From: Terriglobia bacterium
GTDB taxonomy: Bacteria; Acidobacteriota; Terriglobia; Terriglobales; Acidobacteriaceae
Direction of reading: 5' to 3'
DNA length: 64,000 nucleotides
NCBI GenBank assembly: GCA_021324365.1
Contig: JAJPJE010000081.1
Location: 1-64,000, forward strand
Made by a program: the position numbers and the translations under genes. This document shows, one piece after another, positions 5,953 through 11,358 of the stretch (its first letter is position 1; each line of letters starts with the position of its first letter). The notes beneath the pieces were generated by a model. That model had not been told where the DNA came from and did not search any database. It worked only from the letters and a program-made list of their open reading frames with translations.

Positions 5953-6420
5953 TTAAGGTTGGATTTGAAAACTGATCGCCAGCGCTCCGCCTTCAAAACG
6001 AGCATACAGCTCGATGGGTAATCCGCTAACCAAGGTGTGCAGCTTGTAGTCGGATCCGGCGACGACGGTCGGAATGGAAATCAAGCACTCGACGCCTTGC
6101 TGTTCGAGCTTATTCTTGAAACCGCCGGCAATCATGTTGCACAGCTCGCCGAGAGCGTCGTTCATCTCGTTTTCAGCGGCGGCTGGCGTCACTCCCAACA
6201 TGTGGGCAGCAATTGCCAGAGCCGATGAGCGGTTGCAGCGAACTGTCAGCAATCCTCGGAGCTGACCCGCAAAGCCGATGACCGCGCTAACGTTTGCTCC
6301 TGTATCGGTGATCTCCGCCTCGGGTTGCAGACCGGATCCTAACATGATCTGAAATACTTCGCGCGCAGCTTCTTCGATAAGAAGTCCCCAGGATGAAGCC
6401 GAGATGACGGTTGCAGTCAT
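5953..6420 (-). CDS. cheX: CheX-family chemotaxis phosphatase
   Basis: A 155-residue protein with the CheC/CheX/FliY-type fold. Helix NEMNDALGELCNMIAGGFKN carries the catalytic Glu/Asn pair (E92 and N95) that CheX uses to hydrolyse CheY phosphate. It sits eight bases after a stand-alone CheY, giving a compact receiver/phosphatase pair inside the flagellar operon. No cheA or cheW is in the window. The ATG at 6420 is chosen over a frame starting at 6510 because the longer start would overlap cheY deeply. Confidence 0.87.
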   Translation of the reverse strand: MTATVISASSWGLLIEEAAREVFQIMLGSGLQPEAEITDTGANVSAVIGFAGQLRGLLTVRCNRSSALAIAAHMLGVTPAAAENEMNDALGELCNMIAGGFKNKLEQQGVECLISIPTVVAGSDYKLHTLVSGLPIELYARFEGGALAISFQIQP

Positions 6421-6428
6421 GCCGATGA

Positions 6429-6809
6429 TTAACCCTTCAGAAGGGGCAGAATGTGATCGCGTACCTCTTCGGGCGTAAATGGCTTTCGAATGTAACCGCG
6501 CGCACCGCACGAGAGCGCCTGCATCACATTTGCCTCGCTGCCTTCCGTAGTGATCATCACGATGGGAACGTTGGTGGCGATCGCCCCTTCTTTCAACTGC
6601 TGGACAAATTCCAGCCCACTCATCACGGGCATGTTGATGTCGCTGAGAATAAGATCCACCTTTTCGCTTTTCAACAGCGCCAGTGCATCAGCGCCGTTGC
6701 CTGCCTCGAATACTTGAGCGAGTTCGATTCCCGCCTGACGTAACGATCGCTCTACGATCTTACGCATAACGGACGAGTCGTCGACGATCAGAGCTTTCAG
6801 TTGGCTCAT
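6429..6809 (-). CDS. cheY: CheY-like single-domain response regulator
   Basis: A 126-residue receiver domain with no output domain. Acidic pocket D10/D11, phosphoacceptor D57 (LILSDINMPVMSG), T87 and K109 (GYIRKPFT) are all in place, so it should be phosphorylatable. AAGGAA lies upstream of the ATG at 6809. Next to cheX and the rotor genes fliM and fliN, it is a plausible motor-binding CheY, but the histidine kinase is not in view and a different partner cannot be excluded. Confidence 0.9.
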   Translation of the reverse strand: MSQLKALIVDDSSVMRKIVERSLRQAGIELAQVFEAGNGADALALLKSEKVDLILSDINMPVMSGLEFVQQLKEGAIATNVPIVMITTEGSEANVMQALSCGARGYIRKPFTPEEVRDHILPLLKG

Positions 6810-6819
6810 GTCAATTCCT

Positions 6820-7692
6820 TCAAGACTTAGGATTCGATGTGCTGCATTCTCCATTTCCGCCAAACAGGTTGCACATTTGCTCGGCAAGCGGCGGCTGGAA
6901 ATTACGAGCGGAAACTAGATTGAGAGCACCAGAGAGGCTGGCGAATGTTGCTTTGCCGGCCGAGAACTCGCAAAAGACATCCGCAGCGTGAACAATCCGC
7001 TCCAATGCGGCTGCCGATAAAGTACGAGGATGGTGATGATGTTCGAGGACTTCGACCAATGAATCGGGAAACGCCCAGGTGACGCCAAGCCATCCGCCGA
7101 CCACTTGATGATTGATGCCGAGGCAAGCATCTTCCGCCTGCGGGGCGGTGTATACGAAGGAAGTGAGGTCGCCGACATCGAGAACGTTATCCCCAACCCA
7201 TGCAAGCAGTGGAATGCGGCCGAGGTCATGCAGCAGGCCCGCGACGTAACACTCTTTGACCGAATGGCAGCCGGTTGCTCGAGCTAACCACTCGCAAAGT
7301 TTTGCGCATTTAGCGCTGTGCTGCCAAAGCTCGTACATGGGATCTCTATTTTCGAGAATTGGGACGGTAAAAAGCAGGGTTCGTAAGGAATCAAGCCCTA
7401 CGTAAACAAGAGCCAGATCGAGATCAGAGGTGGGCTCATTCAGATCCAGATTGGCCAGCTTCAGCACCTGGGCGGCAAGGCCCACATCGTCACGCACTAC
7501 CTCGGACACGGCCGCCAGATCAACTGGAGATGGCATGAGCAGGTTGCTCAGTCGATAGACCGCCGTCGAGTTGGCTGGAAGGGTGCGCAGGCAGGATGCG
7601 AACTTCTGCCACTGACCGGGATTGCGTGACAGAGTGTCTGTCGAATTTACGTCGAACGGGGATGAACAGACAGCACCGGTAGCTTCTCGCAT
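6820..7692 (-). CDS. HDOD-domain signalling protein
   Basis: A 290-residue protein with an HDOD domain: LPANSTAVYRLSNLLMPSPV, then SEVVRDDVGLAAQVLKLAN, GLDSLRTLLF, and the degenerate HD region VAGLLHDLGRIPLLAW with a His-rich EHHHHP. HDOD proteins are HD-GYP-related regulators often linked to flagella and cyclic-di-GMP signalling, usually without catalysis. It is 10 bases upstream of cheY. Another HDOD gene follows motB at the other end of the window, suggesting a general tie between this family and motility here. The exact role is unknown. Confidence 0.85.
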   Translation of the reverse strand: MREATGAVCSSPFDVNSTDTLSRNPGQWQKFASCLRTLPANSTAVYRLSNLLMPSPVDLAAVSEVVRDDVGLAAQVLKLANLDLNEPTSDLDLALVYVGLDSLRTLLFTVPILENRDPMYELWQHSAKCAKLCEWLARATGCHSVKECYVAGLLHDLGRIPLLAWVGDNVLDVGDLTSFVYTAPQAEDACLGINHQVVGGWLGVTWAFPDSLVEVLEHHHHPRTLSAAALERIVHAADVFCEFSAGKATFASLSGALNLVSARNFQPPLAEQMCNLFGGNGECSTSNPKS

Positions 7693-7752: not shown

Positions 7753-8610
7753 TCAGATTACCGGAGTGTGTGTATCAAACTGGCGTTGCGGGAAGCGTAT
7801 AACGATGTCAAAGCCAGTTGGTGTGAGGCGAAGCCAGAGGTATTCACCGCAGGAAGCAACCCGAACACTGGCGGTTTGAAGTTGACGTGCATAATTCAGC
7901 ACCAACCGGACAGCCTCACTGATGGTGATAGCGGTCTCGATGACAATCTGCGCGTTGGAAGAACGATTTCGAGCAATTTCGTACTGCCGCTCGTAGAGGC
8001 TGCTCTCAATAAGGCAAGGCTCCGCGTGGATTCCCAGCATTTGCTCGACGGCGTACAAAAGAGCGTAGCTGACGCGCTCGGTGAACCCGAGAAACAGAGT
8101 GCGAGTTCCCGGCGAAAAGTGCACCGGCAGCATGCGGTAAACTTCGAGAAAGTGCAGAGGCAGGCACTCTCCGCAAGATGAGCTCTCGGACGGTTGCAAT
8201 GTAAATACCGGACAACCGGATCGCTCGGCAAGAGCGCGGGTAATCTGCCGATCGTTTGCGACACCAAGCTCCTTCAATACATCGCCAATACGTTTCGCGG
8301 GCCTGCGGGACTGCTGGTATTGCAGCGCCTGGTTCAATTGCGTATGGGTGAGATAGCCACGGGAAAGCAATACTAACCCCAATGGCATGCCGCGGCTAGA
8401 AACGGGACCGGGCACCGGTTCGGGAATTGTCGAGATTGCGTCTTCCATTACGGATGAAAAGCAATCTTCCGAGCAGAGCCATTGTCCCTGGAACTCAATT
8501 CCACGGTCTGGACGGAGCATCTGAGTCCAGTCGAGTGCATGCTTGCAATGCTGATTACCGCAGCGACGGCCTTTTGAGAGCAGGCGAATTGGAAGCTCGG
8601 ATAAGGTCAT
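7753..8610 (-). CDS. Zinc-ribbon plus MshEN (GspE N-terminal-like) domain protein
   Basis: A 285-residue protein with no transferase or ATPase domain. Residues about 15-55 carry CGNQHC...LCSEDC, a four-Cys treble-clef-like zinc site. Residues about 75-130 carry two copies of the MshEN pattern: PLGLVLLSRGYLTHTQLNQA, then RIGDVLKELGVANDRQITRA. MshEN domains bind cyclic-di-GMP in MshE and related T2SS/T4P ATPases. The C-terminal 120 residues are unassigned. Its ATG overlaps the stop of the FliN/FliY gene (ATGA), so it is co-translated with a rotor component. A role linking cyclic-di-GMP to the motor is inference. Confidence 0.75.
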   Translation of the reverse strand: MTLSELPIRLLSKGRRCGNQHCKHALDWTQMLRPDRGIEFQGQWLCSEDCFSSVMEDAISTIPEPVPGPVSSRGMPLGLVLLSRGYLTHTQLNQALQYQQSRRPAKRIGDVLKELGVANDRQITRALAERSGCPVFTLQPSESSSCGECLPLHFLEVYRMLPVHFSPGTRTLFLGFTERVSYALLYAVEQMLGIHAEPCLIESSLYERQYEIARNRSSNAQIVIETAITISEAVRLVLNYARQLQTASVRVASCGEYLWLRLTPTGFDIVIRFPQRQFDTHTPVI

Positions 8611-9572
8611 TGCGCAAGTAGCCCAACCCGTTCGGCGTGGGCACATATCTCGGCGATGCGGAGGCCATAATTACCGTTTACGACGACCACTTCACCCCGC
8701 GCAATTACCCGATCGTCGACCAGCAGGTCAACTGGCTCGTCGGTCTCGCGATCCAGCTCAATGACAGAGCCGGAACGAAGTTGAAGGATGTCACGAAGAG
8801 TGAGTTGCCGCTCACCAAAACGCAGGGTGACGGCAAGGCTTACATCCAGCAGCAAATCGAGATTGTTGCGCTTTGCGCGCGGTACCGGAGGCCGAGCGAG
8901 ATTGCCATCCACAGGCGGAGGAGCAGGCGCTTGCACCGGTTTCGCCGCAGCTTGAGATTCGGGTATTCCCGACCGCGGCGACATCGGGTCCTCTGGCACT
9001 AGCTCGCCTGAGTCAACCGGAGCTGGCTCGACAGGAGCCGGTTCAACATGCTGCGGTTCCGGTACGGTTTCAGCCGGTTTTGATAGGTAATGTGAAAGCG
9101 ACGCATTCAGAAAGACATCGGCGGTAAACGCCCAATCCGCGGCGGTGAGTCGAAAGATAGCTGAAGCTTCTGGCTTCCACTCCGGTATCGGTTCAGCGAG
9201 ATAAGTGATTTCGCAATCGGGGAACGATTGTTTAAACTCTGTGGCTGCGCGGCCGGCGATCTGGCGAGACGCTTCGGCTACCGCCTCGCGGTAATCCTCA
9301 TTCAGCTTCGCAGACGGAATGATTGCTTCGCCCATGAATACCTGGGCAAGTGTCAGAGCGTCGGCGGAGCGAATATGAAACGCGAGCTCGCTGCTGTTTC
9401 CGAACGATGGGGCGCGAAAACGGACCCACAGATCATCTTCGCCGCGTGCGGGGGTAGCGTCGGCGGCCGCCACCTCCCAGGAGACACTGACCGGCTTGCC
9501 GGCAATCTGCGTCATCACCTGCGCAATCGAGGATTGCCACGTCTCCACAAATTGAACCAGGCGTTCTGACAT
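8607..9572 (-). CDS. fliN: Two-domain flagellar switch protein, FliN C-terminus with CheC/FliY-like N-terminus
   Basis: A 321-residue protein. Residues about 240-315 form a SpoA/FliN domain (LLLDVSLAVTLRFGERQLTL...LVDDRVIARGEVVVVNGNYG) that builds the C-ring bottom. Residues 1-165 resemble a CheC-like domain as in FliY. In its helix AVAEASRQIAGRAA the catalytic Glu-x-x-Asn is Glu-x-x-Arg, so phosphatase activity is doubtful. A Pro/Ala/Val-rich linker (about 170-225) joins them. A second, single-domain FliN is at 16574. It starts two bases after fliM, and its stop overlaps the next gene. Confidence 0.88.
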   Translation of the reverse strand: MSERLVQFVETWQSSIAQVMTQIAGKPVSVSWEVAAADATPARGEDDLWVRFRAPSFGNSSELAFHIRSADALTLAQVFMGEAIIPSAKLNEDYREAVAEASRQIAGRAATEFKQSFPDCEITYLAEPIPEWKPEASAIFRLTAADWAFTADVFLNASLSHYLSKPAETVPEPQHVEPAPVEPAPVDSGELVPEDPMSPRSGIPESQAAAKPVQAPAPPPVDGNLARPPVPRAKRNNLDLLLDVSLAVTLRFGERQLTLRDILQLRSGSVIELDRETDEPVDLLVDDRVIARGEVVVVNGNYGLRIAEICAHAERVGLLAQ

Positions 9573-9574
9573 GG

Positions 9575-10567
9575 TTATCTCCCTACCTCACGAGAAGCAT
9601 CTAGCACGGCATTGGCGTTGAGAATCTGCGCACCACGATTCGTCCCGGCACGAACCGGTCGCGCCTCAAAGTACTTATATTTCGCAACGCGGAGGTCGGC
9701 GGGAGTGGTTGCGGGAAGCGGCAATACCAGAACGTCTCCAGCTTCGAGTTCAAGAAGTCGCCAGAAGGGCACGTCTGAGGAAGGAAGCGCCAGTTCGAGC
9801 GAGAAGTCGCAATTCAGAAGCGCCTCCCGAAGGCGCTGCTCCGATTCGTTGTTTGCCTTCGCGCGGAACTGCGACCAGTCGCGAGCCAGCTTGCGAAGAA
9901 GAACCGTGGATGCCGACGCGGGGAAAACAAAATTCAGCGCACCTCGCGCGTCCGCCATGCGGATTTCAAAGCTAAGTGCCAGGGCTTTATCTGTCGGCGG
10001 CATCAGGTGCTGCACCGCGGTGGCCTGCTGGCGTTCGTCGAACTCCACTGCCACGCCGACCGATTGCCAAGTGGTGTTCAGTTCGCGACACAGCACGCGC
10101 ACAACGTTTTCCAAAATTTGATCTTCAATTTCGGTGAGATCGCGCAGCGCGGTTGGCGCTTGTCCCTGACCGCCAAGTAAAAGATCGATTACGACGAAAG
10201 CCAGCGAAAGGTCCATCTGCAGGAGGGCAAGGCCGCCTTCAGGCGCGAGATTTAAGGAGGCGAGGTACACGAGATCCGGCACGCGCCCCAGGAACTCGCG
10301 GTACAACAACTGTTCTACGGAGACGAGATTGACCTCGAAGAGGACGCGCAGGTACGCGCCGAGCGAATGGGTAACGTTGCGGGCAAAGGTTTCATGCAAC
10401 GCGCTGATGGCGCGAACCTGCTCCTTGCGAAGGGGACTTCCCTGCAAATTGCAGCGGGTAACCGTAAGTTGCGGCTTCGATACAGGGACCGCAGCCGCTC
10501 CGGCTGCGCCACTCCGGGCCGCCCTGAACATCGCATCGATCTCTTCCTGATTGAGAACTTTTTGCAT
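9575..10567 (-). CDS. fliM: Flagellar motor switch protein FliM
   Basis: A 330-residue C-ring protein. The N-terminal LNQEEIDAMF is the CheY-P-binding peptide, the middle CheC-like domain includes HSLGAYLRVLFEVNLVSVEQ and the C-terminus is a SpoA-like domain. With cheY, cheX and FliN/Y close by, all parts of a CheY-responsive switch except the kinase are encoded here. The start is two bases after the fliA stop. Confidence 0.96.
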   Translation of the reverse strand: MQKVLNQEEIDAMFRAARSGAAGAAAVPVSKPQLTVTRCNLQGSPLRKEQVRAISALHETFARNVTHSLGAYLRVLFEVNLVSVEQLLYREFLGRVPDLVYLASLNLAPEGGLALLQMDLSLAFVVIDLLLGGQGQAPTALRDLTEIEDQILENVVRVLCRELNTTWQSVGVAVEFDERQQATAVQHLMPPTDKALALSFEIRMADARGALNFVFPASASTVLLRKLARDWSQFRAKANNESEQRLREALLNCDFSLELALPSSDVPFWRLLELEAGDVLVLPLPATTPADLRVAKYKYFEARPVRAGTNRGAQILNANAVLDASREVGR

Positions 10568-10569
10568 AA

Positions 10570-11358
10570 CTATGCCGTCTGGTATCGCCGCGAATTCCGT
10601 CGGACTTGTTCCGGCGGCTGCTTCTGTTGCATGCGGGCCCGCAATCGCGAAACTGCCATCGTGTGAATTTGCGAGACGCGCGACTCACCGACACCAAGCA
10701 CAGCGCCGACTTCCTTCATCGTGAGCTCTTCGTAGTAGTAGAGCGACAGCACTTGACGCTCTTTCTCTGGAAGCTCACCGATGGCTTGCGCGAGCAGTGT
10801 TTTTAACTCCTCGTCGAGACAGGCTTGAAAGGGATTTTCGTCGGGATTGGCCGGCAGCGACTCGGCGAGATCGGTTTCTTTCCCATCGTCGTAGGAGTTT
10901 TGCTGCAGGCTGCCGATCTCCAGGGAACCCAGTTCATTCAGCAGATGCTGAAGTTCTTTCAAGGAGAGGTGCAGTTCATCGGCGACTTCCTGTTCCGTGG
11001 CGGCTCTGCCTAGCTCCGTGCCAAGTTTCTGATGAACTTGCTCAAGCCGTCGCGCTTTGCGGCGAAGGTCGCGCGGACTCCAATCGAGTTCACGCAGGCT
11101 GTCGAGAATTGCACCCCGAATGCGGTGCTTGGCATAGGACTTAAACTGCACCAGCTTGTTCTGGTCGTACTTCTGCAATGCGTCCATGAGGCCGAGGACG
11201 CCGGCATGTACCAGGTCATCGAATGGAACGTGCTGCGGCAAACGTTCGTGGATACGACGCGCGATGTAGCGCACCTGCGGCAATTGTTCCATGAGGAGCT
11301 GTTCGCGTTGCTCGCTTTCCGAGGTGTTGTCGTACGCGAGATGGGCTTGTTCATTCAT
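10570..11358 (-). CDS. fliA: Flagellar sigma28 factor FliA
   Basis: A 262-residue sigma70-family factor of the FliA/WhiG group. Region 2 reads IARRIHERLPQHVPFDDLVH followed by AGVLGLMDALQKYD and SYAKHRIRGAILDSLRELDW; region 4 has LPEKERQVLSLYYYEELTMK and GVGESRVSQIHTMAVSRLR. FliA reads the late flagellar genes. Three matching promoters are visible in this window, before flgM, fliC and flbD. It lies directly after flhA; flhF and flhG, usual in this interval, are absent. Confidence 0.96.
   Translation of the reverse strand: MNEQAHLAYDNTSESEQREQLLMEQLPQVRYIARRIHERLPQHVPFDDLVHAGVLGLMDALQKYDQNKLVQFKSYAKHRIRGAILDSLRELDWSPRDLRRKARRLEQVHQKLGTELGRAATEQEVADELHLSLKELQHLLNELGSLEIGSLQQNSYDDGKETDLAESLPANPDENPFQACLDEELKTLLAQAIGELPEKERQVLSLYYYEELTMKEVGAVLGVGESRVSQIHTMAVSRLRARMQQKQPPEQVRRNSRRYQTA

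Follow-up and report, generated by a model that had tools for sequence, protein, structure and literature searches.

Among the proteins through which cyclic-di-GMP (c-di-GMP) acts on the flagellar motor, those of the PilZ type have been studied best. One of them, YcgR, is the established motor effector (PMC13001257). In pilus and type II secretion (T2SS) settings, the ligand is instead bound by two-motif domains, namely MshEN in MshE of V. cholerae, whose contact residues have been defined (PMC5013675), and GSPII-B in PilF of T. thermophilus. GSPII-B, which has Lys and Leu at the two Arg positions, binds c-di-GMP at 6 nM, and its Q218E variant binds at 460 nM, such that binding is weaker but not abolished (PMC11731258). 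XpsE carries a degenerate MshEN domain in which the contacts are lost (PMC5013675).

We analyzed a 64,000-nucleotide stretch of DNA (hereafter the window; positions 1 to 64,000 of contig JAJPJE010000081.1) from a Terriglobia bacterium of the Acidobacteriaceae. An original prediction had singled out a gene in this window as encoding a zinc-ribbon/MshEN protein translationally coupled to a flagellar rotor gene. The open reading frame (ORF) exists exactly as predicted, on the minus strand from 8610 to 7753, and encodes a 285-aa product that we refer to as P1. The ATGA overlap with the stop of the FliN/FliY gene is also present, at 8610-8607, and HDOD, cheY and cheX genes follow P1 on the same strand, each supported by a profile. 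The features of the locus are as follows:

7753-8610, minus strand: P1 gene, encoding a zinc finger, an MshEN domain and a half N2-like end, with no ATPase (ORF, profile, fold)
8607-8610, minus strand: ATGA, the P1 start overlapping the fliN/fliY stop (sequence)
8461-8562, minus strand: putative Cys4 zinc-finger pattern, C17, C22, C46 and C50 (alignment, model)
8221-8385, minus strand: MshEN_N two-motif region, predicted to bind c-di-GMP, residues 76-130 (profile, fold, alignment)
7963-8193, minus strand: MshEN_C alpha/beta subdomain, residues about 140-216 (model, fold comparison)
7774-7953, minus strand: C-terminal beta-alpha-beta-beta-beta unit, residues 220-279 (model, profile comparison)
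8607-9572, minus strand: FliN/FliY-type switch protein, with a weak CheX-like match and FliMN_C (profile)
9575-10567, minus strand: FliM (profile)
10570-11358, minus strand: FliA sigma-28 (profile)
6820-7692, minus strand: HDOD protein (profile)
6429-6887, minus strand: CheY-type response regulator (profile)
5953-6510, minus strand: CheX phosphatase (profile)

On the same strand as P1, fliM, fliA, flhA and flhB lie upstream and the HDOD gene, cheY, cheX, flgF and flgG downstream, the flh and flg genes having been named from sequence and operon comparison. A longer form of P1 starting at 8646 is also open; relative to the form starting at 8610, the aligned Met of most homologues falls near residue 3. 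The FliN-type protein looks like FliY because of its length (321 aa) and a weak CheX-like match at its residues 62-116. As listed, the cheY and HDOD ORFs overlap; the true cheY start is probably later, at MSQLKALIVDD.

Both the MshEN domain and the lack of an ATPase were borne out. NCBIfam model NF053729, a 53-residue MshE-related c-di-GMP motif, matches P1 residues 76-129 with a score of 41.8 bits (cut-off 38), and is matched by all 32 members of our P1 family alignment (E 0.01 or better), most of which also match PilB. Pfam model PF05157 fell below threshold for the window P1 and matched 10 of the 32 members; in PilB, this model begins some 54 codons past the motif, so that it mainly tests the C-terminal subdomain. 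By Pfam alone, the MshEN domain of the window P1 would be overlooked. A profile search of the PDB with the P1 family matched PilF, PilB and MshE (best E 1.7e-41). The AlphaFold model of P1 (mean pLDDT 84.6, pTM 0.80) consists over this region of a four-helix MshEN_N followed by an alpha/beta MshEN_C, and its residues 74-216 can be overlaid on c-di-GMP-bound MshE (5htl; Z 11.9, 2.8 Å over 135 residues) and also on PilF GSPII-B with c-di-GMP, to which the homologue from Terracidiphilus gabretensis compares with Z 12.2. The top matches of the P1 fold comparison were all MshEN-type domains, well above unrelated ones. The spacer between the two motifs is 7 residues in the window P1, not 5. No ATPase profile matched P1, which ends after the putative half of N2 without a RecA-type domain or Walker A, and Pfam searches up to E 1 produced no PilZ match.

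Flanking this core are a zinc-finger-like N-terminus and a short C-terminal unit. The four-Cys site noted originally is kept, with all of C17, C22, C46 and C50 present in 74 of 78 homologues in the form CxxxxC...WxCSxxC. In the model, a beta-hairpin runs into a helix where the second Cys pair lies, in keeping with a treble-clef-like finger that would bind metal; Pfam zinc families did not match P1. At the other end, what had been described as an unassigned 120-residue domain in fact comprises MshEN_C (about 140-216) and a 60-residue unit (220-279) modeled as beta-alpha-beta-beta-beta. In a profile-profile comparison (hhalign) against 19 acidobacterial PilB sequences, P1 73-265 aligned with PilB 1-232 (E 7e-27), reaching the start of the N2 domain. 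The C-terminal profile alone aligned in register with the N2 start (score 20.8, E 0.012); neither the 13 other operon families compared nor any of 100 column shuffles scored as high. The fold comparison listed no N2 match for this unit. Its weak fold matches were to beta-alpha-beta-beta-beta folds, mostly of glyoxalase type (Z about 4), and we did not accept glyoxalase-type homology. The unit likely, though not firmly, corresponds to the opening half of N2 in PilB/GspE.

Among 200 genomes of the window's family, full-length P1 was found in 94, FliM in 95 and both in 90 (Fisher P 8e-45), and among 297 phylum genomes full-length P1 was found in 38, every one of which has FliM (Fisher P 1e-28; hits above 100 bits counted by hand, G428 set aside), both P values being overstated as the genomes are related and not independent. 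P1 is not a universal motor part, since 33 of 71 FliM-bearing phylum genomes are without it. Of the 100 P1 genes in the 200 family genomes, 86 share the strand of fliM and follow it at a distance of 683-2397 nt. Immediately upstream of P1 is fliN in 58 of 60 loci that had been selected for carrying P1, and in nearly all readable loci among the searched genome contigs; at several loci (including L088, L090, L092 and L093) P1 directly follows fliN though fliM is elsewhere. The order flhB-flhA-fliA-fliM-fliN-P1-(cheY/cheX)-flgF-flgG recurs among named Acidobacteriaceae loci. Named species with a P1 relative include Terracidiphilus gabretensis, Acidipila rosea and Paracidobacterium acidisoli. In other Acidobacteriota families P1 is present between fliN and flgF in most loci examined. 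Two fliM loci, with one P1 at each, occur in the Acidobacteriaceae genomes G028, G045, G140, G151 and G190, which probably have two flagellar systems each. The P1 copies of second systems mostly cluster with one another in the tree, and P1 tree distances correlate with those of FliM, FlgG and FliA (Pearson 0.77-0.89). That P1 co-occurs with fliM, adjoins fliN throughout the phylum and is present once at each duplicated flagellar locus supports its being a dedicated flagellar gene.

These surveys centered on Acidobacteriota. P1 loci in genome contigs were recovered with the family alignment as query, another alignment being too diverse for patterns; with a single query sequence, viral contigs yielded no P1 relatives and genome contigs no confirmed relative. 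One locus, L131 (4249-5070, minus strand), encodes a zinc-finger and MshEN protein with the same layout as P1. Its neighbors are secDF, yajC and tgt, and the genome carries fliM on a different contig; the L131 protein is possibly a non-flagellar member of the P1 family.

The same surveys bear on two other readings of P1. Its homology to PilB and the odd substitutions in the window copy (see below) could mean that it is a decaying or chance pilB remnant with no flagellar role. We consider this extremely improbable, as it is already disfavored by conservation across the phylum: full-length ORFs are intact in many genera, the four Cys, W259/R261 and the operon are conserved, and no P1 was counted in those of the 297 phylum genomes that lack FliM. 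A second possibility is that P1 acts not at the rotor but in chemotaxis signaling or flagellar gene control, through HDOD, CheY, CheX or FliA, whose genes are its operon neighbors; MshEN associated with CheA and CheX has been reported (PMC5013675). This we judge unlikely, because cheY, cheX and the HDOD gene are variable or missing at many loci while fliN persists, and the HDOD gene is found on either side of P1 depending on the locus. The linkage of P1 with fliM/fliN is conserved. Its place in the operon does not by itself distinguish a role in motor control from one in assembly or chemotaxis.

We examined the residues that contact the ligand in MshE (PMC5013675). R9, L10, G11, L25, L29 and Q32 of MshE correspond to P76, L77, G78, L92, L96 and Q99 of P1; R38, L39, G40, L54, L58 and Q61 correspond to R107, I108, G109, I123, L127 and R130. 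The window P1 thus has two altered contacts, Arg9 to Pro76 and Gln61 to Arg130, and keeps the rest. Across the family, the contact positions vary less than the other motif positions (entropy 0.86 vs 2.17 bits, P 3e-5), some of them being fold-core positions as well, and the equivalents of G11, G40, Q32 and Q61 are among the most conserved motif positions. Just 58 of 77 members retain the full set of scored contacts. At the Arg9 position, 57 of 61 P1 proteins of the window's family have Pro, and 13 of the 16 belonging to other families have Arg or Lys. Gln61 is present in 76 of 78 homologues; the window copy is one of the two that lack it. Neither substitution proves that binding is lost, as PilF GSPII-B lacks both Args and its Q218E variant still binds. 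The family-wide conservation supports c-di-GMP sensing by P1, and in the window P1 binding may be weakened or lost altogether. The ligand is likely made in this host, given about 13 distinct GGDEF loci in its genome (16 matches, some split).

The altered ligand residues of the window copy and of some relatives are also compatible with P1 being a structural or assembly partner of FliN/FliY, either a chaperone or an extra C-ring subunit, in which the MshEN fold would serve without being regulated by ligand, as with the degenerate domain of XpsE. The overlap or adjacency of its gene with fliN, in several genomes even where fliM is elsewhere, and the one P1 per fliM locus would fit such a partner. 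We regard this explanation as rather unlikely, though the most serious of the alternatives: the equivalents of G11, G40, Q32 and Q61 are highly conserved family-wide, unlike in XpsE, where the contacts are lost (PMC5013675).

The original prediction had also set P1 apart from YcgR/PilZ brakes. This was upheld in the window's family, where neither model of the YcgR N-domain, PF12945 or PF07317, had a match in the FliM-bearing genomes sampled, a divergent YcgR being possible, but not everywhere outside it, as PF12945 is present in some P1-bearing genomes of family f28. A phylum-wide rule that P1 replaces YcgR consequently fails. The 4.4 Mb host genome has about 30 PilZ-domain matches, none of those listed lying on the window's contig.

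Taken together, the best overall explanation, which sequence and model evidence leaves about evenly balanced, is that P1 is a dedicated flagellar-operon protein resembling the front half of PilB/GspE, with a zinc finger, a full MshEN domain and probably the first half of N2 but no RecA motor. Encoded together with FliN/FliY, P1 would sense c-di-GMP, dock on FliN/FliY and so affect the flagellar motor. Judged from sequence, its most likely role is that of a c-di-GMP effector at the switch, with a ligand-independent C-ring partner as the main rival. More specifically, and tentatively, we propose that P1 could be a c-di-GMP-responsive C-ring accessory, a pilus motor minus its ATPase plus a zinc finger, that lets c-di-GMP act directly on FliN/FliY in flagellated Acidobacteria without YcgR; we hold this to be possible, at somewhat less than an even chance. 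The c-di-GMP input to the motor that was first predicted is supported in part, by the MshEN identity, the missing ATPase, the dedicated flagellar gene and the contacts retained family-wide; the window copy itself has lost Gln61. Literature searches combining MshEN with Acidobacteria or flagellar terms, and with zinc ribbon, found no description of P1 in a set that covered few subscription papers. That most of the sampled flagellated Acidobacteriaceae encode P1 immediately beside their flagellar switch genes suggests a c-di-GMP route to the motor that has yet to be described. If real, such a motor-linked MshEN protein would amount to a second c-di-GMP solution, unrelated to PilZ/YcgR, and would represent the reuse of a pilus-motor module in the flagellum.

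Relative to the PilB/GspE ATPases, P1 is collinear over residues 73-265 with PilB 1-232, including the N2 start, but has neither the RecA-type ATPase domain nor the second half of N2. With MshE and PilF GSPII-B it shares the fold over residues 74-216, the two-motif layout and, across the family, most of the ligand-contact residues; it differs in having no ATPase, in its N-terminal Cys4 finger, in its flagellar rather than pilus/T2SS operon, and, relative to MshE, in the Pro that replaces Arg9 in Acidobacteriaceae P1, where most P1 of other families have Arg or Lys. XpsE has the same fold, and the window P1 is likewise altered at the Gln61 position, but it keeps both Gly, the Leu/Ile contacts and Gln32, and the P1 family overall keeps its contacts. 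Like the YcgR/PilZ brakes, P1 would be a c-di-GMP effector at the flagellar motor, but one with no PilZ domain, an unrelated fold and a gene beside fliN.
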